From the IMG/VR virus record IMGVR_UViG_3300035019_000001, positions 1-46,344 of that record: DNA of 46,344 nucleotides. The stretch is one strand, 5' to 3'. A model generated the notes under the pieces. That model was not told where the DNA came from and searched no databases. It saw nothing but the letters and a program-made list of their open reading frames with translations. Origin of the DNA: a virus. The position numbers and the translations under genes are program-made. Below are positions 1,298 to 46,149 of this stretch, one piece after another; positions within the stretch are counted from its first letter, which is position 1, and each line of letters starts with the position of its first letter.

Positions 1298-1314
1298 TTG
1301 CATAGAGTTGCATA
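1298..1314. promoter_or_regulatory. Putative integrase arm-type site, left
   Basis: TTGCATAGAGTTGCATA contains two TTGCATA units 10 bases apart. A 17-base copy with one mismatch lies near the other end of the element (45760-45776). Paired short repeats at both ends, just inside the attachment cores, are expected of arm sites bound by the integrase N-terminal domain. The left site overlaps the start region of the integrase gene, so it could also control that gene. Confidence 0.5.
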
Positions 1315-1319
1315 AAGAA

Positions 1320-2390
1320 ATGAAGCCTTTAATCGTCAGAAAGAATTCTAATAGTTGCATTATCAGGTGGAACTATGATAATGATTCTTATTCTCTTACA
1401 TGGGGTAAATACTCTGACCCTTCTGATAGAGCTAAGCTTGAATTAGCAGGTAAGTTAATCTACCAGGATTGCTTAACTAACAACTTTGATACTTCTCTCA
1501 ATAAATATAAATGCTGGCTATTAGGGATTGTTCCAGACGTTAATAGTTACTCTAAAGTTAAGTGCCCCTCACTAATCACACTTTTAGAAGAACGTCTAGA
1601 GAATCTATACAGTAGTGCTGATCAATCAGTTCTGAATTTATTAAAGCAGTATAAAATCTCTGTTGATAATCCCTGTAAAGCTAAAGACTTTCTAAAGTGG
1701 ATTCAGAATAGAGGAGTAGCTACATCCACTCAGAAACGCTATCTAGCCGTTCTACAAGTAGTTAGAAAAGATTTATTCGGTCATCTGAAGGTTAAATTAG
1801 AAGGTAAACCTAGACCTAGACCCCTTACTATTGAACAAGTACATAGATTTATAGCTGAATTAGAACGATCTCCTAACTACTGCCATTATGTAGACTTCTT
1901 TCTGTTTTTATTTAATTCTGGACTCAGGATTAATGAAGCTATAGGTCTTAGATGGCAAGACGTTGATTTAGATAATAGAGAGATTCAAGTTTATCAATCT
2001 CTAATAAGAAATAGAGGTAAAATCTCAACTCGAATTAGAAAAACCACTAAAACTTCAAAGCATAGAGTAGTTCCCATCAATAATAAAGTATGTGACATTC
2101 TTACTAATAGAAAGTCTAAGGATTCAAAAGGCTCAGACCTAATATTCTTATCTCATAAAGGTAAACCAATTGATGACCATACTCTAAGTCAAAGATGCTG
2201 GAGAATAACTTTAGAGAAGTCAGATATTCCACATCGACCTATGAGAGTAACTAGAAGTACTTTTGTTAGTCATTGTGCTGCTTCTGGAATGGAGCCTGCT
2301 AATATTGCTCAGATTACAGGTCACGATGTAAAGATTCTATATGAGAATTATTTAGGGGCAATCAATAAACCCATTCTACCTGAACTATAA
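1320..2390 (+). CDS. int: Tyrosine-type site-specific integrase
   Basis: Recombinase of the phage, expected to join attP to the tRNA-Ala gene. Numbered from the ATG at 1320 (356 residues), the C-terminal catalytic domain shows the first arginine in SGLRINEAIGLR (R203), a lysine-rich beta-hairpin before HRVVPI, RVTRSTF (R312, with Arg in the place of the usual His), GHDVK (H335) and the nucleophile in YENYL (Y344). The N-terminal part has an arm-binding-like region and a SAM-like core-binding domain. A TTG at 1308 would give four more residues but lies inside the putative arm site, so ATG is preferred. The gene is next to attL, the usual place for a phage integrase. Confidence 0.9.
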   Translation: MKPLIVRKNSNSCIIRWNYDNDSYSLTWGKYSDPSDRAKLELAGKLIYQDCLTNNFDTSLNKYKCWLLGIVPDVNSYSKVKCPSLITLLEERLENLYSSADQSVLNLLKQYKISVDNPCKAKDFLKWIQNRGVATSTQKRYLAVLQVVRKDLFGHLKVKLEGKPRPRPLTIEQVHRFIAELERSPNYCHYVDFFLFLFNSGLRINEAIGLRWQDVDLDNREIQVYQSLIRNRGKISTRIRKTTKTSKHRVVPINNKVCDILTNRKSKDSKGSDLIFLSHKGKPIDDHTLSQRCWRITLEKSDIPHRPMRVTRSTFVSHCAASGMEPANIAQITGHDVKILYENYLGAINKPILPEL

Positions 2391-2417
2391 TTAGGCGTAC
2401 AAAAGGAGATAAATAGT

Positions 2418-2663
2418 ATGAAAGTCGAAATCAATTTAGATTGTGACATGAATCTATGTTTAACTTACCTACTTTTTGCAGTAGCGGCTGTAGAGATTGA
2501 GCCTCCTAAGGAAGACAATACGCTTATCTGCTACGAAAGGGATGTTGAAGGTAAGCCTCAAATTATGAAAATCGAAATAACTCCCTCAGAAATTGATGAA
2601 TTAGATGAGCAGAGAATTAAATGGTATTTACAACGTAAGGATAGTTTAAAGAAGTCCCACTAA
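2418..2663 (+). CDS. Small acidic protein, paralogue of next gene
   Basis: 81 residues, preceded by a good ribosome binding site (AAGGAG about 9 bases upstream). It starts MKVEINLDCD and is rich in Glu and Asp with a Lys-rich tail. The N-terminus resembles that of the next small protein (MKIQIDIDSD), so the two are probably diverged copies of one early phage gene. No family is recognised. It lies 27 bases after the integrase and may be co-transcribed with it. Confidence 0.65.
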   Translation: MKVEINLDCDMNLCLTYLLFAVAAVEIEPPKEDNTLICYERDVEGKPQIMKIEITPSEIDELDEQRIKWYLQRKDSLKKSH

Positions 2664-2729
2664 TAAAATGATTGAATCTGTGGGTGTTGATTACGTTAAA
2701 CTTAGAGTTATTCGCCTCCTTAATTAACC

Positions 2730-2990
2730 ATGAAGATTCAAATAGATATCGACTCTGATAATACTCCTGTAGCTTGTGTACTCTTTGAGGTTAGTCTAAG
2801 AGGTATTTTGGGTGTAGATGAACTTGAAAATGATTTAAGTTTTAATTTGGAGGGTAAAGAAATACATATTTCTGAGAAATTAACAGTTGAAGAACGCCGT
2901 TATTTCAGGAAATGGTTTGAGAATTGGATTTACAGATATATTGCGAAGGAGATGCCCCTAATTGATCTTAAGAATCGCCCACATTCTTAA
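2730..2990 (+). CDS. Small protein, paralogue of preceding gene
   Basis: 86 residues. Starts MKIQIDIDSDN, similar in pattern to the previous gene, and shares an acidic middle followed by a short helical C-terminal part (RRYFRKWFENW). Function not recognised. No clear ribosome binding site is visible upstream. It is the last gene before the terminator at 3012-3039, so the integrase and the two small genes may form one transcript. Confidence 0.6.
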   Translation: MKIQIDIDSDNTPVACVLFEVSLRGILGVDELENDLSFNLEGKEIHISEKLTVEERRYFRKWFENWIYRYIAKEMPLIDLKNRPHS

Positions 2991-3011
2991 GCACCATTAA
3001 ATCTAAACTTT

Positions 3012-3039
3012 GAGAGTAAATAAACCTACTCTCTTTTTT
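3012..3039 (+). terminator. Rho-independent terminator touching the next start codon
   Basis: GAGAGTA and TACTCTC form a 7-bp stem with an 8-base loop, followed by six T. The next gene's ATG begins on the base after the last T. Confidence 0.75.
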
Positions 3040-3327
3040 ATGTATAACTTCCTGAACTTCTGTATCAGCTTCATCCAGTCAATTATTAATACTCTAAAAG
3101 TTAATCCATTAATCACCTTATCTATCATCTTCCTATTCGTCGATAAGACCCTATTCATAGCCTTCCTAACTGGAGCTATAGGATTTACATTAGGTGTAGT
3201 TAGTGGACGTTCTGACGGTATTCTAAGTACATATCAGACTGATGAAGAAACAGTACAGCAAATACTTTCAGAAGTTAATTCGCGTCGTTCAGAATTCTAT
3301 TTAGATGAGGATGAGACTGATATATAA
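3040..3327 (+). CDS. Small membrane protein
   Basis: 95 residues from the ATG at 3040; a TTG at 3010 would add ten, but the sequence between is a terminator hairpin. Two hydrophobic stretches (around FCISFIQSIINT and ITLSIIFLFV to FLTGAIGFTLGVVSG) suggest two membrane passes, followed by an acidic C-terminal tail (residues 70-95). There is no ribosome binding site, because the T-run of the terminator abuts the start. Function unknown. It could be expressed by terminator read-through only. Confidence 0.5.
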   Translation: MYNFLNFCISFIQSIINTLKVNPLITLSIIFLFVDKTLFIAFLTGAIGFTLGVVSGRSDGILSTYQTDEETVQQILSEVNSRRSEFYLDEDETDI

Positions 3328-3334
3328 AAATAGA

Positions 3335-3373
3335 GAGAGAGTTAAGCCTCTACCAAAAGTACTTAACTCTCTC
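3335..3373. terminator. Bidirectional terminator between convergent genes
   Basis: Perfect 12-bp stem (GAGAGAGTTAAG / CTTAACTCTCTC) with a 15-base loop. On the minus strand it is followed by a T-rich stretch. It separates the plus-strand membrane protein from the minus-strand gene ending at 3407. Confidence 0.7.
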
Positions 3374-3406
3374 CAGTTATCCCTTAGATTATGCATCAGT
3401 GAGGCT

Positions 3407-3811
3407 TCAATCATCCCACTGAGTTCTGTCAACTTGATACCAAATTACTACATCAGATATATTACACGCACCTTGACTGCACCTGAAAAATACTGTAACG
3501 GGATTGCCATGCTGATTAAAAGCAGGCAGGAAGTTAAATGACTCCCAGTAAACAGTTCTTATATTGGCTGGAAAAGAACCATCAAACATAATGGCTTCAT
3601 CAGTTATGTCATCGAGATAAACTCTAAAGGAAGTTGCCTCTGAAGTCGTAATCTTAAAGGCTAGGACTGGTTTTCTTGATCCCCCCGTCACGACAATATC
3701 ATCAGGAACTCCAAATTCTAACTCTTGATTACTATTTGAGCCTGTACCAGTAAGCGGAAAAGATGCATCAGAAAGGACTTGGTAGTCAGCAAGAGAAGTA
3801 CTATTAGCCAT
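3407..3811 (-). CDS. Unknown protein, possible virion or beta-rich protein
   Basis: 134 residues with a start MANSTSLADYQVL preceded by GGAG. Rich in Ser, Thr, Gly and beta-forming residues, with two cysteines near the C-terminus (RCSQGACN). There is no membrane segment. The composition resembles small structural or decoration proteins, but no family is recognised. It is the only minus-strand gene in the early region and stands alone, so it may be a moron expressed apart from the late operon. Confidence 0.55.
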   Translation of the reverse strand: MANSTSLADYQVLSDASFPLTGTGSNSNQELEFGVPDDIVVTGGSRKPVLAFKITTSEATSFRVYLDDITDEAIMFDGSFPANIRTVYWESFNFLPAFNQHGNPVTVFFRCSQGACNISDVVIWYQVDRTQWDD

Positions 3812-4168
3812 AGAATCTGCTCCAATCTGTTAACTGCTTCTAGGCTAGATTCTTAATGAATTAAGTACATTACCCACATGGGTACTATTCAATAGGTTGA
3901 GCTATAAGGAATGAATTTAACTTCCAGACACCCCTATATATTGAAGTAAAGGAATCTACTAAATCTACATGTAGTTAGTGTAGTTATCTTGTAATATTTT
4001 TAATTTTTGAAATGTAGATGTAATTAAACCTCAATTAGAGAGTTACTAATTGAGGTTCTTTTATTGGCAGTTATAACGCCCACTTTCTAAATATCAATCC
4101 TGATAAATTCATGAATATGGGAGTAAAAACATATCCTTAATCAATATTTATAAAACTGAATAATTCGG
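3812..4168. other. Divergent intergenic region
   Basis: 357 bases without a gene, between a minus-strand gene and the plus-strand gene at 4169. It is very AT-rich and must hold the promoters of both. The only clear structure is the hairpin at 4027-4064. Confidence 0.5.
4027..4064 (+). terminator. Terminator-like hairpin with no gene before it
   Basis: Perfect 12-bp stem (AACCTCAATTAG / CTAATTGAGGTT) followed by CTTTTATT. On the plus strand no gene precedes it within this region, so it would end a short untranslated transcript or act as a leader attenuator for the gene at 4169. Confidence 0.55.
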
Positions 4169-5311
4169 ATGAATACTACTTTAAATTTAAAAGATTCTAT
4201 TCTCGCTAAAAATCCTAATGCTGATATAACCATTATTTCTAAACTTACAGATTTAATTGAAAAGCATAATATCAGTTGGGTTCCTAGTTCAAGTAAAACT
4301 GGAAGCTACTTTATTATGAGTGAGCTTAGTATAGCTAAAGGACTTACTAAGGATGATTATCAAAAGCATTGGGCTTGTGAAAAGAAAGAATCGACGACAT
4401 CCGAAGAAGGGATGTCGTCAGAATGCAGCCCTAGCAACACTTCTGACAACCGCTATCAAAGAGCGGTCGTCAACCCTAACCTTAAGCCAAAACCTGTAAG
4501 ACCTTCTGAATCCACGAGTTCTGAAAAAGGGAACCCGTCACTACCTGGTAAAAGCTTCAAGTTAGAAGGTGCAAAACTTAAGACTTTTAAGAGACTCTAC
4601 CTTGAATGTACAGGTAAAGACTTAGGAAGAATTAATTCTATTTGGGTTGGCGACTTTGAACATGCCTACAGCTACTTAGTTCAAGGATCTACAGAAGCGG
4701 CTCAAGGTTTTCAATCCTTAGGTTCTGATGCGATCACTCAAGCAGCCCTAGAGCCTATTGAAGATGTGACTCGTAGAGAGCTTAATGGGATTGGCCTTTC
4801 TGAGGAACAGATTCAGGATCAACTTCTATTACTCTGCAATCACGGTTACTACAAACTGGAACCAGAACAGAGTGTAAAAGACTTTCCTCAAAGTAAATGT
4901 GTAGTTAGAAGGTTTGACCTAGTTCACAAACGTCCTGACAAACACAAACGTAAAGTAGTTACAATCTACGAACTGAAGAGAAACGTAATTGATCTCTGTG
5001 ACGTTATCACTACGATTGAAGCTAAGCGCTATGTAGAGCTAGGCAAGTTAGCTTACAACACTGAGCATGTGAAGCTAATTATGGTCGCTCCCTTTGGTGG
5101 TACTCAAGAAGCCTGTATGAAAGCGGCTGAGTATGGTATTGAAATTATGACCCTTCAAGTTTTAAGTAATGAACTAATGAAGTCAGCTTTAAGGAAGCAT
5201 CCATTAGATCCTTACTTTGTAACTGAAACATTAGCTAAGAAGTTTGAAAAGATTCTATCTAACCCTGCTTTACCTGCTGCTAAGCCTGCACCTATTCTAA
5301 AGTCTGCTTAA
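4169..5311 (+). CDS. PD-(D/E)XK nuclease-like protein
   Basis: 380 residues in three parts. Residues 1-75 are a small helical N-terminal region. About 75-125 are a low-complexity Ser/Pro/Glu linker encoded by palindromic DNA. From about 130 on is a globular domain with RRFDLVHKR, a gap, then VTIYELKRN: an Asp followed by a beta-strand ending in ELK, the pattern of PD-(D/E)XK nucleases, then VKLIMVAPFGGT. Such proteins in phages act in DNA processing or recombination. It lies upstream of the partition-like genes. Nuclease activity is inferred from the motif only. Confidence 0.6.
   Translation: MNTTLNLKDSILAKNPNADITIISKLTDLIEKHNISWVPSSSKTGSYFIMSELSIAKGLTKDDYQKHWACEKKESTTSEEGMSSECSPSNTSDNRYQRAVVNPNLKPKPVRPSESTSSEKGNPSLPGKSFKLEGAKLKTFKRLYLECTGKDLGRINSIWVGDFEHAYSYLVQGSTEAAQGFQSLGSDAITQAALEPIEDVTRRELNGIGLSEEQIQDQLLLLCNHGYYKLEPEQSVKDFPQSKCVVRRFDLVHKRPDKHKRKVVTIYELKRNVIDLCDVITTIEAKRYVELGKLAYNTEHVKLIMVAPFGGTQEACMKAAEYGIEIMTLQVLSNELMKSALRKHPLDPYFVTETLAKKFEKILSNPALPAAKPAPILKSA
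4393..4538. repeat. Three successive palindromes inside a coding sequence
   Basis: GACGACATCC/GGATGTCGTC (4393-4419, perfect), TGACAACCGCT/AGCGGTCGTCA (4444-4472, one wobble) and ACGAGTTC/GAACCCGT (4514-4538, one mismatch) follow each other in frame. They are richer in GC than the surrounding phage DNA and encode only the linker of the nuclease-like protein. Confidence 0.7.
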
Positions 5312-5334
5312 AATAAAACCTAAATTAAATTCTG

Positions 5335-5364
5335 AACCCTTCTATTAATTAGAGGGGTTTTTAT
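5335..5364 (+). terminator. Rho-independent terminator after the nuclease-like gene
   Basis: AACCCTTCT and AGAGGGGTT form a stem with two G-U/C-type imperfections and a 7-base loop, followed by TTTATTG. It lies 24 bases after the stop codon. Confidence 0.7.
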
Positions 5365-5388
5365 TGTATTTACCCTTATATCTATTTG

Positions 5389-5515
5389 TATCTAATCATA
5401 TTCAATTAGATATATTCTGATTCTTTTTAACCTTCACCTATTGCTTTTATGGATTCATTTATATACTATTAGATAAGAAAGGAGAAAAAAGTATTCATTT
5501 GTATTAAATTAGATA
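5389..5515. promoter_or_regulatory. TTAGATA repeat region upstream of the ParM-like gene
   Basis: TTAGATA occurs at 5406-5412, 5469-5475 and 5509-5515 and in inverse orientation at 5389-5395; the first two form an inverted repeat. Actin-type partition operons usually carry their centromere and operator repeats directly upstream of parM, where ParR binds. This makes the region a candidate parC/operator, though the repeats are short and AT-rich. Confidence 0.45.
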
Positions 5516-5550
5516 TGTCACTAATTGAAGGTAATTTAGAGGAATTAGAA

Positions 5551-6624
5551 ATGAGTTCAAATTTATTTGTTGGTTTTGATATTGGCAACTTACATTCTCG
5601 TGTTTCAGCTAATGAGTTCAAGAATATGAGTGAGAGCTATGTACTTGAATTAGAAGCAGGAACTTACCCTAAAGCATTCAAATGCATTAAAGATAGTAGT
5701 GACTCTAAATTTTGGGAGAATAAAGAATTTCTAGTTGGTAAGCCTGCATTAGATTTTAATCCTAAAAGAGGGGATAGAGTTCTAGATGATAATGACCATA
5801 AAGCTAAATTGGCTCTACCACTTCTTGTAGCTTTAGTGTGGGAGAAGATTGAGACTGAAGACACTTTAATTCAATTAGGTATATCAGTTCCTAATGCTTC
5901 AGCACTAGAAGATAAGGTTATAAGCCACTTAAAAGGAAGGTTTAGATTTGAGTTTAATGGGGTCAAGAAAACTTTTCAGATTAAAGTAGTTAAGGTTTAT
6001 TTTGAAGGTCAAGGTGTCATCAAGCAGCAAAAAGGAATTGATAGAAACATTCTAATGCTTGACTTAGGTTCAGACACCTTAATTGTTTCTCAGTTTGAAG
6101 GTTACGCCTGTAAGAATAGTATCCCTTTAGAAAGTGCTGGAGTCCGTTCATTAATCACTAATATCATCGGCTCTCCTGAAATTAACTCTCCTAAATATCT
6201 AGGTAAGACTCCCACTTTTCAGGAAGTTCTAGATATGTTTGAACGTAATACTCCTTATGTAATTGACGGTGTAGAAATTACAGAGCTTGTCAATAAGTTA
6301 GCCCTTACTTGGATCACTGAAGGACTTAAGGAGAGTAAGAGAGTGATGAAGAATGCTTTCCTTGATTCAAGCTCTTTAGTCGCTACAGGAGGAGGATGTG
6401 AGATTCCAGTAGTTAGTGACTTTCTAATTAGTAACGGCTTCAGAGTCGCTTCTAATCCCATCTGGGATAACGCTGATGGAATGGTGCGAGCAGTTGGTCA
6501 GAAGTTTGAAACTAGTATTACTTTAGGGAATTTCAATAAAGCCAGAACTAAAAAAGCTTCTAAAAAGATTAGTAATGTAGTTGATATCAAATCTAAAGCA
6601 GTTGAGGTACAGATTAATGGCTAA
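5551..6624 (+). CDS. Actin-like ParM-type segregation ATPase
   Basis: Actin-fold protein of about 357 residues. The first phosphate loop is FVGFDIGNLHSRV near the N-terminus, the second is LMLDLGSDTLIV in the middle, and the adenosine motif is VATGGGCEIPVV near residue 290. These are the diagnostic motifs of ParM/Alp-type actins that push plasmid copies apart. The ATG at 5551 has GAGG 9 bases upstream and starts just before the first motif; an in-frame ATG at 5515 adds twelve residues but lies inside the TTAGATA repeats. It overlaps the next gene by 8 bases. Its presence in a phage with an integrase suggests that the element can also be kept as a plasmid. Confidence 0.82.
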   Translation: MSSNLFVGFDIGNLHSRVSANEFKNMSESYVLELEAGTYPKAFKCIKDSSDSKFWENKEFLVGKPALDFNPKRGDRVLDDNDHKAKLALPLLVALVWEKIETEDTLIQLGISVPNASALEDKVISHLKGRFRFEFNGVKKTFQIKVVKVYFEGQGVIKQQKGIDRNILMLDLGSDTLIVSQFEGYACKNSIPLESAGVRSLITNIIGSPEINSPKYLGKTPTFQEVLDMFERNTPYVIDGVEITELVNKLALTWITEGLKESKRVMKNAFLDSSSLVATGGGCEIPVVSDFLISNGFRVASNPIWDNADGMVRAVGQKFETSITLGNFNKARTKKASKKISNVVDIKSKAVEVQING

Positions 6625-6853
6625 TCCAGTATCTCAAATGAAAGTTAATCAAGAGATGATCAATCGGGTAAAGCAGAAGTGTAATCCTAACTTTATTGGA
6701 AATGATAGGCAGTTTATTGAATGGCTTTTAACTAATATTGATGCAGGTATTCACCCCTTTTCTCAGACTATAACTGACAGTCATATTAAGGAAGCCCCTG
6801 AAGTCATAGAGGAGGAAGTAAAGCAGACTGGTTGGCAAGATGATGAAATGTAG
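6617..6853 (+). CDS. Small ParR-like partner of the actin-like protein
   Basis: 78 residues from the ATG at 6617, inside the end of the preceding gene, so translation is probably coupled. The basic N-terminal half (MKVNQEMINRVKQK) could form a ribbon-helix-helix or HTH DNA-binding domain. The C-terminal tail is acidic (EAPEVIEEEVKQTGWQDDEM). A small DNA-binding adaptor with an acidic tail directly after parM is the usual place of ParR. The identification rests on position and composition. Confidence 0.6.
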   Translation: MANPVSQMKVNQEMINRVKQKCNPNFIGNDRQFIEWLLTNIDAGIHPFSQTITDSHIKEAPEVIEEEVKQTGWQDDEM

Positions 6854-6922: not shown

Positions 6923-6965
6923 AAAAAAAGACCCTGTAAGAATTTAATTCTTACAGGGTCTTCTG
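6923..6965. terminator. Strong bidirectional terminator
   Basis: GACCCTGTAAGAATT pairs perfectly with its inverse at 6946-6960, an almost loop-free palindrome. The minus side has seven T and the plus side TTCTGATTT. On the plus strand it ends the ParM/ParR-like operon; on the minus strand it would end the candidate small RNA. Confidence 0.8.
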
Positions 6966-7089: not shown

Positions 7090-8205
7090 ATGGATTTCAG
7101 TTCATTTGAAGAAAATATAAGGAAGACAGGATTCCCCCTTGAGTTCCGCATTGCTGAGATTCTGAGAAAAGCAGGATGGAGTGTCATCAACAACCGATAT
7201 TATGCGGATGACTTGACTGGCACTGTCAGAGAAGTTGATTTAATTGCTTATAAAGTTAGAAAAGTTAGAGACTTTCAACTCTTTACAAGTATTGTTATTA
7301 GCTGCAAGAAGAGCGAAGATTGTCTTTGGGCTCTACTTTCAAAAGATATTAATATCAACGATGTGAATACTGATTGGAAACCTATTCATGCTTGGACAAA
7401 CCTCAAGGCATTAGAGTTTGTAATGTCTCAAGAAGGCTGGAAAGATGAATACTATAGCTATGTTGCTGAAAAAGGAGTGACTCAGTCTATACGCATTCCT
7501 GAAGTAGATATTTTTGCTTTTCAGACGATGCTGAAAATAGATAAGGATAAAAATAATGAGAAAGGAAAAGCAAAAAACGATACTCCTATTTATGACTCTA
7601 TAGTTGGTTTAATGAAGGCTCAAGCTTATGAGATGTCTTCTCTTCCTAAAAATGATAGACCTAATCGAATCTACCAATTTAACTTAGTGTCTATTATTGA
7701 TTCTGATCTGATTAGGCTTCATTTTGAAGAAGATGAAATAAAGGGATCTGCGGTAGAGCAAGATCACCATGTTGGCAGGTATATTCTTAACGGAGAAGCC
7801 ACATTTGCTCATGTCCACTTTATTAAAGCTGATGCTTTTGAAGGCATCTTGAATGATTATGATTCACTTCATGAAGCTAATGCTTCCTTCTTCCAAAATG
7901 CCTATGATGACTTCTATAAAAATGTTTTGGATGATTATAAAAGAAGAAAAATATTTCATAAAGAATTTTCAGAAGCGATAAAACCTATCATTAATTACAG
8001 AGTAAAAGTAGAAGATGGTGAGGAATTATTTATTTACTTAAATAAGCCCGATGAATCAGGATGTTTGAAAATTGAATTAGATCTGAACGAAACTCAAGTG
8101 CAGGAGCTGAATGAATTTCCCTTCCTTATCAGTACAACAGAGGAACTACTTAAAAGCCTTTACCATTATGAAGGGAAATTTAAATTTGTGACACTATCAT
8201 TTTGA
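7090..8205 (+). CDS. Restriction-endonuclease-like protein
   Basis: 371 residues. The N-terminal 100 residues look like an Mrr/PD-(D/E)XK fold: FRIAEILRKAGW with a helix and Glu/Arg, then REVDLIAYK with the acidic residue, and a strand ending VISCKKS with the lysine; a Ser replaces the usual Glu of the ExK motif. The rest is mixed helical and strand without a recognised domain. It lies alone between two terminator-like structures and convergent to the late operon, as expected of an accessory (moron) gene. Defence or DNA-processing nuclease activity is an inference. Confidence 0.6.
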   Translation: MDFSSFEENIRKTGFPLEFRIAEILRKAGWSVINNRYYADDLTGTVREVDLIAYKVRKVRDFQLFTSIVISCKKSEDCLWALLSKDININDVNTDWKPIHAWTNLKALEFVMSQEGWKDEYYSYVAEKGVTQSIRIPEVDIFAFQTMLKIDKDKNNEKGKAKNDTPIYDSIVGLMKAQAYEMSSLPKNDRPNRIYQFNLVSIIDSDLIRLHFEEDEIKGSAVEQDHHVGRYILNGEATFAHVHFIKADAFEGILNDYDSLHEANASFFQNAYDDFYKNVLDDYKRRKIFHKEFSEAIKPIINYRVKVEDGEELFIYLNKPDESGCLKIELDLNETQVQELNEFPFLISTTEELLKSLYHYEGKFKFVTLSF

Positions 8206-33322: not shown

Positions 33323-36133
33323 ATGACAACTGAATATCAAAACTACCTTTCCAAATTTCTTAAAGAGAGTTCATCAAAGCTTTGGAAGTCTCCCACATAT
33401 GTAGTCACAACTGGAGATGATACTGAATATGTGAGCAGGACTAATCAGAAGAATAAAATGATTATTTCTCAAACAGCTTTTTCAGAAGACCCTAATGAAT
33501 GTGTAGTTCTAGAACATCCAACTTTAGGGTTAGGAGTTCTACCTACTTGGGACACTAAATGTATATTGTCCAGTATTTTAGAGTTTGAAGAAGTAAGTCC
33601 AGTTAAAGTTCCAGACGGCTATCTAATTTGGGAAAAGATAATCTTTTTCGCGCCAGCAGATGTTCTAGCAGGTTCTTTTAACGATCCAGCTATCACAAGC
33701 TTTATTCAAAAGAATTGTATTCAGGATACTAGATTTAGAATTGAGACAAAGGATAAGAATCACCCAGACCTATTACAGCTACCCATATACTTAGACACCC
33801 CTAAAGGAATTCTAAAGTTAGTCCTGAAGGTTATTGACCTATCTAAGCTAGGTGGGAGGGGGCTAGAAGACACGGTAAAAATGTTTGGTGGCAAGATGAG
33901 TGATAAAGGGTTAATGGATCAATACAAGACCAATATGTTATACCCTTACACAGAACCTAACCTTCAGAAAGATTTCGTTAAGTACTCTAAATCAGATGCT
34001 TGCATCTTACATTGGTTAAGGAAAAAGAATGAATTTAGAAAGAATAAACTTTTTCAGATTCAAAACCTAACACCACCTCAAAATGAGATATTAACCGTGG
34101 GTTCTCTAGTAGCTATACTGTTGGAAAAATACTTAGAAAATTATATTGGGGAATTTAAGGCTTACGAATTCTTTACTTCCACTCAGTTTGGTAAAACCCG
34201 TAAGTTTACATTAAGAGATTTACTAGAGAAGTCAACGGTAGCTTACTTTGCTCAACAAAAAGAGTCTAATAAGTCCGTAGCAAGCTTGGTGCAAGGTGGT
34301 CGGGCCAAGAATGAAAGACCGACAGACTTTTATTTTGAAGGGGCTATAGCCGATGCAGATATGTGTGGAGCTTATGTTGAGGTTCAGAAAAAGTTAGAAT
34401 ACGCTGTTGGTTTACCCGTAAGTTGGGGTAAGCATGAATCTGATAAGAGAGTAGTTACTTTAGGTCAATTCTTAAAGAAAGAATCACAAGACTTTGAGAA
34501 CAGACAATGGGCTATTACCGTATCAGGTGATTTAAGCTTCAATCAAACGTTGATCCCTTCAAAAGTAACAGACAGTATTAAGATTAATGAGAATTATTCA
34601 GAAGATAATCCTAAGATTAATGCTGACTTTAGGCTTTATACCCGTCAGATTATCAACGGCATTGTAACCTCAGATGTTTTAGAAGCTCTTAACAACGTTT
34701 GCTCAAGCAAGGAACTATCTGAAATCCTATCTTTAGAAGTGGTAAGTGCAGTTTGGCATCCTAAATCTAAAAAGTGTACAACTCCTGAAGAATGGTTTGA
34801 AAAAACAAAAGCTCATACTGATAAAACAGGCAATAGATTAGAAGTAAAGATCGTAAAAGGTAGACAAGTAACCATAGACAACCGTTCAACTTATTGGTTA
34901 GCTGTACCGCTAAATAGCTTTATCAAACCGTATTCAGATATTAGAGGACATCTAAAAAGAAAAATGAGGAGCTTTGAGAAAGGTTCTGATAAATTTCTAC
35001 TCTTTGACTCTAAGCAGAATCAAATGAAGCTGATCCCCAATACAGCTTACGGAGTTATTGCAAGCCCTTATTTCCCTGTAGGTAGTGCCGTCTTAGCAAA
35101 TGTCATCACAGCAGCAGTTAGAACGGCTCTATGGTGTACTCAAGCAGCAGTAGGGGGTTTCCTATCTATTACAGACGGAACCCCTTATGACTTAAATTCA
35201 GTTAGAGATTGGAAAGACCACAAACCTTCTATGAACACCATCAGCTTATGGAGAAATCAAAGTAGATTAAACAGAACGGCAACCCGCTACTTAAATACTA
35301 AATCTTTAGGTACAGATGCTAAATGGCTAGTAACTGAAGGTAGAAGCAATGGGGATGATAGATACACAATATTAACTGACGGCAATGTGACTATAGAGTG
35401 TAAAGAAGGTGAGTGGACTTACCTAGATGAAAAACTAAAGGAGCATGTTCAACACTTTTTTAGAAATGGTGAGCCGATTAGCATTTTAGACAGCTTGACT
35501 TTTGAACATAAGGACGTTTATGTAAAGGCAATCACTCATTCTCAAACTAATTATCAATTCCATCACGTTTCTGGAGATAAAAAAACAAAAGTTAGAGGGC
35601 AGAAGTTAAAAAACACACCATATAACAACGATACTGAAGCTTCTAACATGTTTCCTTTATTCAATGATCTAGAAAATAACCCTTCTGAAATCATAGCACA
35701 GCCACCCCAAACCATTAGCCAACTTTTAAAGTGCAATTTAGCTAATGAAATGCTAAATAACCTTTCAGATAATGTAGTTAAAACAAATAATCTAGAAGCA
35801 GGGGACAGTTTAGAGAAGAAAAGTCAGATTACCATCATCAGTTTATCCATGTTTCATTGGCAAAGTGATAAACAGTTTCAATCGTGGAGTAAAACTAATG
35901 ATAAATTGAAAAAAGAATCTAATTGGGGTATTGAACAGTACTTTCAGAATGAAGATGGAACAATTAATTATCAATTAGCAGTATCAACTATTCAGGAAAA
36001 GATTGATGACGGTGAATCATGGATCTGTAAGTACTCTAATAAGAACCCTAAAGAAAAGGTTTTATCTTTACATCCGTTTCATTCAGATTACAAAAAGTTG
36101 GATAATTTAGTTGAAGAGGAAGTAGAAAACTAA
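33323..36133 (+). CDS. Divergent family-B DNA polymerase
   Basis: 936 residues. The 3'-5' exonuclease part has the Exo III motif YSKSD (221-225). The polymerase part has VQGGRAKNE before motif A, motif A DADMCGAY (344-351), motif B K569 with NTAYG (573-577) and motif C as SITDGTPYD (615-623). In usual PolB motif C reads YGDTDS; here the first Asp is Ile and only TDG remains. The large C-terminal part (630-936) is unknown. It is probably the replicative polymerase of the phage. No primase or terminal protein was seen. Confidence 0.68.
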   Translation: MTTEYQNYLSKFLKESSSKLWKSPTYVVTTGDDTEYVSRTNQKNKMIISQTAFSEDPNECVVLEHPTLGLGVLPTWDTKCILSSILEFEEVSPVKVPDGYLIWEKIIFFAPADVLAGSFNDPAITSFIQKNCIQDTRFRIETKDKNHPDLLQLPIYLDTPKGILKLVLKVIDLSKLGGRGLEDTVKMFGGKMSDKGLMDQYKTNMLYPYTEPNLQKDFVKYSKSDACILHWLRKKNEFRKNKLFQIQNLTPPQNEILTVGSLVAILLEKYLENYIGEFKAYEFFTSTQFGKTRKFTLRDLLEKSTVAYFAQQKESNKSVASLVQGGRAKNERPTDFYFEGAIADADMCGAYVEVQKKLEYAVGLPVSWGKHESDKRVVTLGQFLKKESQDFENRQWAITVSGDLSFNQTLIPSKVTDSIKINENYSEDNPKINADFRLYTRQIINGIVTSDVLEALNNVCSSKELSEILSLEVVSAVWHPKSKKCTTPEEWFEKTKAHTDKTGNRLEVKIVKGRQVTIDNRSTYWLAVPLNSFIKPYSDIRGHLKRKMRSFEKGSDKFLLFDSKQNQMKLIPNTAYGVIASPYFPVGSAVLANVITAAVRTALWCTQAAVGGFLSITDGTPYDLNSVRDWKDHKPSMNTISLWRNQSRLNRTATRYLNTKSLGTDAKWLVTEGRSNGDDRYTILTDGNVTIECKEGEWTYLDEKLKEHVQHFFRNGEPISILDSLTFEHKDVYVKAITHSQTNYQFHHVSGDKKTKVRGQKLKNTPYNNDTEASNMFPLFNDLENNPSEIIAQPPQTISQLLKCNLANEMLNNLSDNVVKTNNLEAGDSLEKKSQITIISLSMFHWQSDKQFQSWSKTNDKLKKESNWGIEQYFQNEDGTINYQLAVSTIQEKIDDGESWICKYSNKNPKEKVLSLHPFHSDYKKLDNLVEEEVEN

Positions 36134-36670: not shown

Positions 36671-38428
36671 TTAAACAGTAAGGCTATCATCAACAAATGA
36701 ATGGATTAGTGAATTAGATGAGCTTGGAAAACTTTTAATTACTGATAATGCTTTTGACTCCAGATCTTTTGCTTCATCAAATCGTTTAATTAGCTCATTA
36801 ATAATGCGGGGATCTGTAGTGAAGAGTCCTGCTTCACGCTCTTTGGAACTGTCACCTGATGTTAGAAAATTATGGCTCCCAACAACGGCAAACTTGCGAT
36901 CACAGACTATATATTTTTCATGAGTTCCGATAATTTTAAGTTTAAGGTAGTCACCCTCTAAATCTCTCAGATAATCAATAGCATCGTATAAGTTAGAATG
37001 TTTTTTGAGCCTTTGCCATAGCTCTCCTACTCCATACCGAACTGAGTTCTTGCTAATATCGTTTAAATGGCCCCACCCAATATTGATATTAATTTCTTTC
37101 TTCAATTTAGCTTCAATCTTCTCTTCTATAGTGCTGTCAATAGAGTATGTTGCAAGCCAAGGACAAACCATAATCAACCGCTCCCCAACTTCATCAAGAG
37201 CTTTCTCCAAATATTTCCGACTTTCAGAGCGATCGCACACCAATTTATACTCGTAATTAGGTTGAATATTTTTGAGCATCTGGTTTACAGCACTCAGATG
37301 AGTTTCCAGACTTTCATCCACCTGCCCTTGAAATCGTTCAGAAAACTCTTTCAAAAGGCTTTCAAAATCAGTTGAATTATCTTTACTTGAAGCTAAAATT
37401 TCTAGCTGATTCTGCATTTGTTCAAGCGGTCGAGTCTCATCATGAAGATCCTGATAGCTATGATCTAGGTCTGTCAAATGCTCCTCTAACTGCTTAACGT
37501 GCCCCCTCAGAGTATCTAACTGTTTTTGAACATTCAATTTTGGGCGGTTTTCAACTTTGTTAGCCAAAGCAACGACCTGCTCTTTCACAGCAGACAACTC
37601 ATCTAGGGAGATTGCTGACTGTTGCCACAATAAAAACTCATCTTTAGTAAGGGAAGTTTGAAGTTTGTTCTTTAAGGAAATTACTACCCTGTCAATCTCC
37701 TCAATCTTCCTCTGAATGGTTACTACTTCTGAAGCTACAACCTTCTTCTGCCATGAAGCAAAATCTTTTATAGTCAAATAATCCTGAAGTTGATGCTCCA
37801 GACTAGCAATATTCTCAACCTGCTCACTTGTAACACTCTCCTTTTGAGATTCCACAAGTTGTTGTAGAGATTGCACTTGAGTTCTCAATGTATCAATGTC
37901 TTGCTGAACTGGCACTGGATTAAAAGGAGTTGGAGTAGGGAGAGGCTGCTGAACTTGAGTAACCTTTTCAAAGAGACTAGCTAGGTCGAGAGAATGCATA
38001 ACGCCAAGACCCTCTGAAAGGCGTTCGATTTTTCTCTCAACTTCAGTTAAATCTGATGGAGTAGGAGGAAGTTTATTAATGTGATCGCTGACGTGAGAGA
38101 GCTTGTGCTGTAGCTGCCCTATTTGCTCCTGAATACTTGCTGCATCTGAGAGCTTCAGATACACGTCAGGGATAAGGGTGCTTTGTTCAATAGCTGTAAT
38201 CCTTTGAGTAACCTGCTCTTGAACTTGACGAGTACTAACTGCAATGTGGCGAGCAGTTGCTTCTTCCATACGATGACGGTTCTTCTGACTCAACCATATA
38301 AATACTGCTAGGAGAGGTACACAAAGCACCTGTTGGTATAGTAATCCTGCAAATGCTCCTGCTAATGAACCATACTCTGCAACTTCAAACCAACGTAGAT
38401 ATTTTCGATTTGAGTTAGAGAGGGTCAT
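36671..38428 (-). CDS. Membrane-anchored coiled-coil protein with PLD-type nuclease domain
   Basis: 585 residues. Residues 18-45 have a hydrophobic segment (GSLAGAFAGLLYQQVLCVPLL). About 50-385 are long coiled coils. From about 395 a PLD-like domain follows: a first strand-helix with CPWLATYS, and HEKYIVCD at 503-510, an HxKxxxxD motif, then VGSHNFLTSGD. Only one HKD motif is present, so a dimer would be needed for a full site. Such anchored coiled-coil PLD proteins may act in defence or membrane remodelling; the nuclease role is an inference. Confidence 0.75.
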   Translation of the reverse strand: MTLSNSNRKYLRWFEVAEYGSLAGAFAGLLYQQVLCVPLLAVFIWLSQKNRHRMEEATARHIAVSTRQVQEQVTQRITAIEQSTLIPDVYLKLSDAASIQEQIGQLQHKLSHVSDHINKLPPTPSDLTEVERKIERLSEGLGVMHSLDLASLFEKVTQVQQPLPTPTPFNPVPVQQDIDTLRTQVQSLQQLVESQKESVTSEQVENIASLEHQLQDYLTIKDFASWQKKVVASEVVTIQRKIEEIDRVVISLKNKLQTSLTKDEFLLWQQSAISLDELSAVKEQVVALANKVENRPKLNVQKQLDTLRGHVKQLEEHLTDLDHSYQDLHDETRPLEQMQNQLEILASSKDNSTDFESLLKEFSERFQGQVDESLETHLSAVNQMLKNIQPNYEYKLVCDRSESRKYLEKALDEVGERLIMVCPWLATYSIDSTIEEKIEAKLKKEININIGWGHLNDISKNSVRYGVGELWQRLKKHSNLYDAIDYLRDLEGDYLKLKIIGTHEKYIVCDRKFAVVGSHNFLTSGDSSKEREAGLFTTDPRIINELIKRFDEAKDLESKALSVIKSFPSSSNSLIHSFVDDSLTV

Positions 38429-41444: not shown

Positions 41445-42644
41445 ATGATTAGCAGACCATTTGACTCAATCGGTAAAGATGACATTGAGAGCTTGATTTC
41501 TAATAATATTCCTGAGAGTAGGACATTAGAGTACAAGGAAGCTTTGCCCGGAAATGCTGATGATGACAAGCGTGAGTTTTTAGCTGATGTTTCATCGTTT
41601 GCTAATGCTTCAGGAGGCACTCTGATTTATGGAGTTCGTGAGCAGAGAGATGGGAGCGGTAAAACAACTGGGTTTCCTGAATCGATTGTTGGTTTGGGTA
41701 ATATCAACATTGATGCTGAGAAGCTGCGATTAGAGAGCATCCTTCAAGCTGGTATTTCTCGTCGCATTATTGGGCTACAAATCAAAGCAATTGATGGTTT
41801 CTCCTCTGGAGAGGTGCTACTTATCCAGGTTCCGCCAAGTTGGAACTCACCTCATATGGTGACATTCAAGAATTGGTCACGGTTCTTCTCTCGAAACAGT
41901 GCAGGAAAGTATCAGTTAGATGTAGATGAATTACGTAATGCCTTTATTGCATCAGAGTCACTAGGAGAGCAGATTCGGCAATTCCGAGTTGATCGTGTTG
42001 CAAAGCTTATTGAAGGTGAAGGCCCAACTAAACTCTTGCCAGGTGCAAAATTTATGTTGCACCTTATTCCAGTTGCAACGTTTGGTTCATCAGAGCAAGT
42101 TGATGTTCGCGCTGTCTTTAGGGCAAATAATCTTTACTCTCCTGGAGAAGTTACGAGAAGGGATAGGCGATTTAATTTGGATGGTGTCCTAAGTTTTGTT
42201 GATAACTACACACGGGATAATGAGTCATATTCTTACGCTCAGCTCTTTCGCAATGGAGCGATTGAAGCTGCTTGCTCTCTTATGAAGGGGGATGATACGC
42301 ACGTAATTGAAAAAGATTATGAACTTAAGGTTCTTAAAAGTTTAGATAAGTACCTTCACTTACTGCAAGAGCTGTCAATTAATTCCCCGATCATCATTTC
42401 TCTTACCATGATTGGAGTAAAGGGCTACAAAGTAGGCCGCTCAATATTTGATGCTTCTCCTTACACAGCAAGGATAATTGATCGAGACGTACTAATCATT
42501 CCTGAAATCAGTTTAGAAGAGTATGGCGTTGTTCTAGAAAATGCTATGCGACCATCTTTTGATGCAGTTTGGCAAGCATCAGGGGGTGAAGGCAGTCCAA
42601 ATTATGACCAAGCAGGAAAGTGGATAGGTTCGCTAGATACTTAG
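41445..42644 (+). CDS. AlbA_2/Schlafen-like domain protein
   Basis: 399 residues. The N-terminal 170 residues show the AlbA_2 pattern: SRTLEYKEALPG, REFLADVSSFANASGGTLI, YGVRE, then SGEVLLIQVPPSWNSPH and RFFSRNSAGKYQLD. The C-terminal half is unrecognised. AlbA_2 proteins act as nucleic-acid-binding or putative RNase/ATP-binding modules and are common in defence islands. Defence is suggested by domain and company. Confidence 0.75.
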   Translation: MISRPFDSIGKDDIESLISNNIPESRTLEYKEALPGNADDDKREFLADVSSFANASGGTLIYGVREQRDGSGKTTGFPESIVGLGNINIDAEKLRLESILQAGISRRIIGLQIKAIDGFSSGEVLLIQVPPSWNSPHMVTFKNWSRFFSRNSAGKYQLDVDELRNAFIASESLGEQIRQFRVDRVAKLIEGEGPTKLLPGAKFMLHLIPVATFGSSEQVDVRAVFRANNLYSPGEVTRRDRRFNLDGVLSFVDNYTRDNESYSYAQLFRNGAIEAACSLMKGDDTHVIEKDYELKVLKSLDKYLHLLQELSINSPIIISLTMIGVKGYKVGRSIFDASPYTARIIDRDVLIIPEISLEEYGVVLENAMRPSFDAVWQASGGEGSPNYDQAGKWIGSLDT

Positions 42645-45776: not shown

Positions 45777-45898
45777 TAATATAGAGACTTTCCTAAATAG
45801 AGTATTCCTTTTTTTAGCGCTAAATGCGGCATGACTGAGAGGTGTAAGGGGCTATAGCGCAGTTGTTAGAGCCCCCTGATATAGCAATGTTTTCAACC

Positions 45899-45952
45899 TA
45901 TGGAGCTAAGCGGATTCGAACCGCTGACCCTCTCAATGCCATTGAGATGCGC
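45899..45952. repeat. attR core (direct repeat with 1180-1233)
   Basis: 54 identical bases shared with attL; they cover the tRNA-Ala 3' end through the anticodon arm. Together with 1180-1233 they bound the phage of about 44.7 kb. Confidence 0.85.
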
Positions 45953-45973
45953 TACCAACTGCGCTATAGCCCC
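45901..45973 (-). tRNA. tRNA-Ala (anticodon GGC)
   Basis: 73 bases. Acceptor stem GGGGCTA/TAGCTCC has the G3-U70 wobble that identifies alanine tRNAs. D arm GCGC/GCGC, anticodon arm TCTCA/TGAGA with loop ATGGCAT (GGC), T arm AGCGG/CCGCT with TTCGAAT. The discriminator is A and CCA is not encoded. It is the host gene restored by phage integration and the target of the CAST guide. Confidence 0.95.
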
Positions 45974-46149
45974 TTACACCTTTCAATCATGCCGCATTTA
46001 GCGCTAAAGCGCAACTCAAGAACTGTGCCGATTTAAGAAAAACCCCACAAACCCATAAATGAGATCTGAGCTTATGTCAATTTATGCGAGAGCGCGGCTT
46101 TGTTGCATGATTGAGAATTGAGACAAATCCATCCTAAACTCGGTTGAGA

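Follow-up and report, generated by a model that had tools for sequence, protein, structure and literature searches.

A ParMRC-like cassette and a candidate plasmid-type replicase in an integrated cyanobacterial myovirus prophage

Introduction

Lysogeny in filamentous cyanobacteria is poorly known. The DNA analyzed here, a stretch of 46,344 nucleotides from an IMG/VR virus record (the window), carries an integrase, virion genes, and a gene for an actin-like ATPase that is coupled to a small downstream gene and preceded by repeats. A first-pass annotation read the latter arrangement as a plasmid stability system and proposed a phage able to live either integrated or as a plasmid. What, then, would a plasmid-type partition cassette do in a phage that inserts itself into a chromosome?

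Results

The window holds an integrated myovirus prophage

The whole window is a single contig (G000:C23) of a 5.97-Mb genome assembled in 128 contigs, and it contains a myovirus prophage of ~44.7 kb inserted in tRNA-Ala(GGC). Its framework is formed by the following features:

1180 to 1233, no strand: attL core, the duplicated 3' end of tRNA-Ala; a 54-bp exact repeat of 45899-45952
1308 to 2390, plus strand: tyrosine integrase of 360 aa (PF00589, E 7e-25); 51% identity to the integrase of the G153 prophage
4169 to 5311, plus strand: early protein of 380 aa with no assigned function (phrog_37791), adjoining the cassette; homologs in two of nine related prophage regions (G153 and G183)
9437 to 31788, minus strand: virion operon with small and large terminase, portal, scaffold, major head, sheath, tube, tape measure, baseplate, lysozyme-like protein, and tail fibre (PHROGs)
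45899 to 45952, no strand: attR core within tRNA-Ala(GGC), whose gene spans 45901-45973 on the minus strand

The integrase gene adjoins att repeats that restore the 3' end of the tRNA, as in integrated tRNA prophages, and GC content is 0.37 between the repeats versus 0.43-0.45 outside. The region is a classical integrated prophage. By PHROGs assignments its virion gene set is complete, as a phage-plasmid also requires, and the prophage is apparently a complete temperate cyanomyovirus. The assembly holds the prophage solely in its integrated form, flanked by attL and attR, and a search of its own genome for a third copy of the att core returned none. That the contig itself might be a circular plasmid was ruled out, its ends having no overlap and the sequence outside the att cores differing in GC content.

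Several further features lie at the borders and in the cargo of the prophage. Just inside attR, 45813-45872 repeats, in inverted orientation and at 93%, the 5' part of tRNA-Ala and its upstream DNA, with the original at 45949-46008; this copy is possibly the trace of an earlier recombination. The left flank contains a 73-bp tandem repeat in 3.6 copies (409-664) and, adjoining attL, GACATTAAT-type repeats of ~20 bp (1050-1179). A 585-aa coiled-coil and PLD-like protein (36671-38428) matches MkoB/DrmC-type defence models, and a Schlafen/AlbA_2-domain protein at the right end (41445-42644) is possible defence or regulatory cargo. Directly behind the cassette, 7090-8205 encodes a 371-aa protein that is nuclease-like by eye and has no family match. 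Elsewhere in the genome, more than 20 tRNA genes are packed into 4 kb (G000:C98:2158-6148).

The cassette resembles a type II partition locus

The cassette and its borders consist of the following features, both hairpins coming from a consensus scan:

5334 to 5360, plus strand: terminator-like hairpin separating the cassette from the preceding gene
5377 to 5516, no strand: centromere-like (parC-type) candidate region with three 26-bp repeats, four TTAGATA/TATCTAA motifs, and a 10-bp phase
5551 to 6624, plus strand: actin-like ATPase (ParM/Alp type; ALP), 357 aa from the preferred start; the ORF opens at 5515
6617 to 6853, plus strand: ParR/adaptor candidate of 78 aa (ATG at 6617, stop at 6853), overlapping the ATPase stop by 8 bp; homologous partners stand behind related ALP genes
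6926 to 6964, no strand: terminator-like hairpin ending the operon

The identification of an actin-like ATPase is borne out by two matches of the ORF at 5515-6624, one to PF17989 (ALP_N), scoring 27.4 bits where the cut-off is 26.3, and one to the 'partition protein' family phrog_691 (E 1.5e-13). PF06406 (StbA_N) gave no match anywhere, controls included, and is an unsuitable model. A profile built from nine relatives matches the solved structures of a ParM hybrid, Alp12, Dh-cParM1, and AlfA, and Hsp70s too. Positions invariant across these nine include G20, D22, G24, E164, G165, D183, G185, T188, G292, and G293 (numbered from 5515), which we assign to the loops that bind the nucleotide in actin-like ATPases. 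A start at 5551 is more likely than one at 5515, because AGAGG lies just upstream of the former and the ATG at 5515 sits at the end of the last repeat. Since terminator-like hairpins flank the pair on both sides, the ATPase and its partner probably form an operon of their own; behind it, a search for structured RNA gave only sub-threshold Rfam matches.

The coupled small partner was also read correctly. Judged by its homologs, which stand behind related ALP genes in two further genomes, the 78-aa protein is real: it shares 30% identity over 69 columns with the G033 partner (pairwise E 6e-10) and 34% over 38 with the G021 partner (pairwise E 2e-9), and all three have a FIEW core. A small co-directional ORF is found at the end of the ALP gene in 55 of 60 ALP loci, a redundant set from which ALP ORFs shorter than 230 aa were dropped. 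Structure prediction was proposed in the first-pass annotation as a check on this protein. AlphaFold models an extended start and then helices at residues 12-22 and 30-42, the arrangement that a ribbon-helix-helix (RHH) protein would need, at low confidence (mean pLDDT 58 from the single sequence, 66 with 13 sequences), and the wider partner set displays a strand/helix/helix pattern by eye. The models have no match by Foldseek or VIA; the partner proteins have none in Pfam; no RHH family or profile is matched, and profile routes to solved RHH proteins (PDB profiles) came back empty. Window-type partners align only weakly with the wide partner family (hhalign prob 0.4 and 8.6). An RHH fold is therefore a hypothesis that the predicted helices only suggest.

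Upstream of the ATPase gene, 26-bp repeats occupy 5387-5412, 5450-5475, and 5490-5515, and none of 200 dinucleotide shuffles of the 203-bp region upstream attains its best-triple score (0/60 in a second test), which confirms the repeats as non-random. The motif TTAGATA, named in the first-pass annotation for a binding test, fares less well: TTAGATA/TATCTAA occurs three times in the cut 203-bp region, a count that two of 2000 shuffles attain (shuffle mean 0.24), and four times within 5389-5515, but it is not specific, with 14 plus-strand and 16 minus-strand copies across the window. In the autocorrelation of this region, a lag of 10 is the sole period between 6 and 69 above 2.5 sd (z 3.2, 0/1000 shuffles), a moderate result given the 64 lags tested. 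This phase of about one helical turn presumably resembles that of parC of plasmid R1.

In the G033 relative, the repeat before the ALP gene is phased at 11 bp (z 5.0). Across ALP loci, with regions below 240 bp and duplicates left out, 11 of 43 upstream regions pass the shuffle test versus 1 of 12 window controls; the upstream region of the closest relative, G021, fails it. Parts expected of a type II (ParMRC) locus are found together here: an actin-like ATPase, a small adaptor candidate directly downstream of the motor and, at the sequence level, upstream repeats forming a putative centromere.

Relatives of the ATPase lie outside the phage records searched

The ATPase has matches at 1e-5 in 34 of 388 genomes of the class. 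The nearest, in G021 (40% identity), lies on a chromosome-like contig that shares a single short ORF with the window and otherwise no phage genes. PLSDB contributes 36 matching records, none above about 27% identity; those listed are cyanobacterial. None of 50,697 phage records contains a relative (tblastn, E 1e-3), and two further ALPs of this family likewise matched no phage record. A search of viral contigs found no ALP relatives and one of genome contigs no close ones; a wider ALP query returned 19 cyanobacterial loci. The named loci with related ALP genes belong to filamentous cyanobacteria of the Leptolyngbya/Phormidesmis type. In a tree from which ORFs below 300 aa and duplicates were left out, the window joins the G021 row (100/96) and then the G033, G194, and G289 rows (100/99), on long branches and with a program warning.

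The G033 relative (G033:C1:4844-4855 kb, L150) adjoins an integrase and a protein of ~1100 aa, a homolog of which, on contig C58 of the window's own genome, carries a Prim-Pol domain. Plasmid-like elements combining an ALP gene, a partner, and the ~1100-aa protein were seen in G033 (L150) and in the window's own genome, which has three (G000:C58, C62, and C124; L027, L025, and L026); some ALP elements have a recombinase nearby and membrane-protein-like ORFs. Beside the ALP genes of L074 (G194:C37:90-94 kb) and L152 (G358:C84) there are CRISPR-like arrays, seen as repeated ORF peptides.

These relationships bear on whether the cassette serves inheritance at all. In the Corynebacterium prophage CGP3, the adaptor AlpA binds repeats upstream of its operon, loss of AlpC or AlpA about halves the excised phage DNA, and AlpAC supports replication of the excised form, as far as the available text of that report goes (PMC4446434). 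The filaments of the window might likewise move replicating phage DNA only during lytic induction, with no role in inheritance. CGP3 is integrated and is the closest published prophage case, but the gene order differs: alpA precedes alpC, an order its authors contrast with ParMR in the same text (PMC4446434), whereas the motor comes first in the window, as in par loci. The ATPase, moreover, has its nearest relatives either within a plasmid-like element or standing by themselves on a chromosome, and no phage record contains one. Taken together, we regard purely lytic transport as a real but minority prospect.

The cassette is accessory among related prophages

Relatives of the large terminase (TerL, 1e-20) occur in 14 of 388 genomes. 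Nine related prophage regions were compared, from eight of the 13 other terminase-positive genomes plus one IMG/VR contig; they are partial in places, the IMG/VR contig covering 21 of 42 kb and the G155 region being a 39.6-kb contig. As fetched, eight of the nine lack an ALP gene, and the profile matches only G194. There an MmeI-type restriction-methylation gene stands between the ALP gene and the terminase, which are ~14 kb apart, and the prophage border is not fixed; we rejected this ALP as proof of a module that recurs in this phage type. A raw enrichment, with ALP matches in 7 of 14 terminase-positive genomes versus 27 of 374 others, was likewise set aside, as the two genes are near each other only in G000 and G194.

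Two of the related prophages are informative on integration. The G153 prophage, whose integrase is the 51% relative listed above, is likewise inserted in tRNA-Ala(GGC), where its core measures 44 bp, and the G033 prophage, whose replicase homolog (see below) is 46% identical, lies in tRNA-Ser between 81-bp repeats. Both are integrated and carry no ALP gene. This phage type therefore integrates, with the cassette as an accessory; the absence of ALP from eight of nine regions as fetched means that the phage type does not need it.

The cassette might then be a passenger, plasmid genes gained by recombination and serving no current phage function. Its sporadic occurrence, the terminator-like hairpins on both sides, and the defence-like look of other prophage cargo would all suit a passenger. 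Both reading frames are open, however, the conserved ATPase positions are kept, and so are the gene overlap and the upstream repeats, and we consider a functionless insertion improbable.

A replicase candidate related to proteins of small plasmids

The polymerase-like gene named in the first-pass annotation, like the integrase and the full virion operon, is present:

33323 to 36133, plus strand: family-B-polymerase-like replicase candidate of 936 aa, with relatives among the proteins of small cyanobacterial plasmids

Pfam supports family B only weakly (E 0.0014, below cut-off). By tblastn, the protein matches nine plasmid records, all cyanobacterial and 4.6-27 kb in size, and has no relative among the 50,697 phage records (E 1e-3), a collection that lists A-1 and N-1 for the terminase. 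On circles of Calothrix (5.5 kb), Stanieria (5.9 kb), and Geminocystis (5.1 kb), its homolog is the only protein of ~1000 aa; a 4.6-kb Geminocystis record has one small gene annotated, yet the replicase match spans 1690-3813. Six aligned replicase proteins have NTxYG and ITDG in common, which we take to fit polymerase-B motifs B and C. With relatives on plasmids, several of them 5-6 kb circles on which the relative is the sole large gene, the 936-aa protein looks like a plasmid replicase. No convincing origin iterons were found around its gene. The ~1000-aa proteins of the Calothrix, Stanieria, and Geminocystis plasmids (L154, L155, and L157; 5-6 kb) are polymerase-like and annotated as hypothetical; they are likely a little-studied family of replication proteins. 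A novel POLBc clade with a DG motif has been described from red-algal and cyanobacterial plasmids, in the part of the report available (PMC4814812).

The gene occurs in 6 of 388 genomes: the window's own, the G033 prophage, G350 (on a 4,576-bp contig), G021:C41 and G125 (both loci near an integrase), and G266:C82. Outside prophages, the nearest relatives lie on small plasmids and small integrating elements. On the 53-kb contig G266:C82, which is not closed, one stretch of 8 kb contains a homolog of the replicase together with an ALP ORF and a 107-aa ORF, the pair following the replicase by ~3.4 kb, and no homologs of the window's virion proteins are present; its ALP is only distantly related to that of the window (22%). 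A replicase and a partition-like pair thus recur together on a plasmid-like contig. A 41% homolog of the 585-aa PLD-like protein also lies near this replicase.

These genes bear on the proposal of a true phage-plasmid, which would alternate integration at tRNA-Ala with a stable, self-replicating, actively partitioned plasmid prophage. An integrase with att sites, a replicase from a plasmid family, a ParM-type cassette, and a complete virion operon stand together in one element, and the same kind of replicase is paired with an ALP pair on G266:C82. That several 5-6 kb plasmids have a member of the replicase family as their one large gene makes the proposal stronger than the first-pass annotation could have known. 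Against it, the assembly contains the integrated form only and no third att core, the prophages G033 (same replicase) and G153 (related integrase) are integrated and lack an ALP, as do most related regions, and actin-like modules also occur on integrated elements. The proposal is partly supported, and we hold a full phage-plasmid life cycle to be possible but doubtful.

Discussion

The reading that we favor, with some confidence, is that the cassette is a ParMRC-like (type II) module with a general role in segregating or positioning the excised phage circle. Both more specific readings, a plasmid phase and transport confined to lytic growth, overlap with this general role, and each is considerably less probable than it. 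A plasmid phase that is stable across generations is possible. Because the prophage carries a plasmid-type sorting pair as well as a plasmid-type copying gene, it would probably be able, once excised as a circle, to replicate and to distribute its copies.

In the mechanism that we propose, the integrase would excise the prophage as a circle, which the PolB-like replicase would copy. The 78-aa protein would dimerize, bind the upstream repeats, and repress the operon, and ATPase filaments growing from the protein/repeat complex would separate or position the copies. The filaments may thereby keep the excised form from being lost, or move it during replication. More tentatively, a small-plasmid backbone, made up of the PolB-like replicase and the ParMRC-type cassette, may have been joined to an integrating myovirus that persists either in tRNA-Ala(GGC) or as a partitioned plasmid.

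Even on a conservative view, this is an unusual prophage, with an ATPase and a replicase that both lack relatives among the 50,697 phage records searched (tblastn, E 1e-3). If its excised form does copy and partition itself, it would link integrating phages to small plasmids through a shared replicase and suggest how the two kinds of element exchange backbones. The prophage also supplies a cassette open to testing and, for cyanobacterial vectors, a replicase candidate.

Comparison with known systems

A limited search of the open literature returned no description of a cyanobacterial phage-plasmid with ParM. The cyanobacterial plasmid proteins of ParM/StbA type (the 36 PLSDB records) belong to the same broad ALP family as the window's ATPase but are non-viral and at most about 27% identical to it. 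For the replicase, the comparison is one of description: unusual PolB-like proteins are shared by cyanobacterial plasmids, as in the POLBc clade (PMC4814812), and are also found in the Nostoc phages A-1 and N-1 (PMC4916379), to judge from the portions available of both reports.

Among phages that are plasmids, Bacillus prophages with ParM and an RHH protein, such as vB_BtS_B83, are likewise temperate and tailed, with a ParM-like protein, a small adaptor, and a putative centromere (PMC8026635). In the accessible part of that report, they are siphovirus prophages described as plasmids, whereas the prophage of the window is a myovirus integrated at the att site of a tRNA gene; the same source cautions that possession of partition genes is by itself no guarantee that a phage replicates as a plasmid (PMC8026635).

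Actin-like modules are also documented on integrated elements that have no stable plasmid life, namely AlpAC (PMC4446434) and srpMRC (PMC4489591), in the available text of both. AlpAC shares with the window an actin-like protein, an adaptor, upstream repeats, and an integrated prophage as its carrier, and differs in placing the adaptor before the motor. CGP3 is moreover a 187-kb prophage, and the available text of its description makes no mention of a plasmid-type replicase (PMC4446434).

The srpMRC module, which stabilizes the excised form of SXT/R391 integrative and conjugative elements, is similar in having the actin-like motor first, a small adaptor without a recognized domain second, the centromere upstream, and a normally integrated element as its host, in the part of the report at hand (PMC4489591). 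The likeness drawn here is one of features; SXT/R391 elements are conjugative rather than viral, and srpMRC lies within the int operon (PMC4489591). Should a small-plasmid backbone indeed have been joined to an integrating myovirus here, the window would be the phage counterpart of the SXT/R391 case, on the 'line between ICE and plasmid'.
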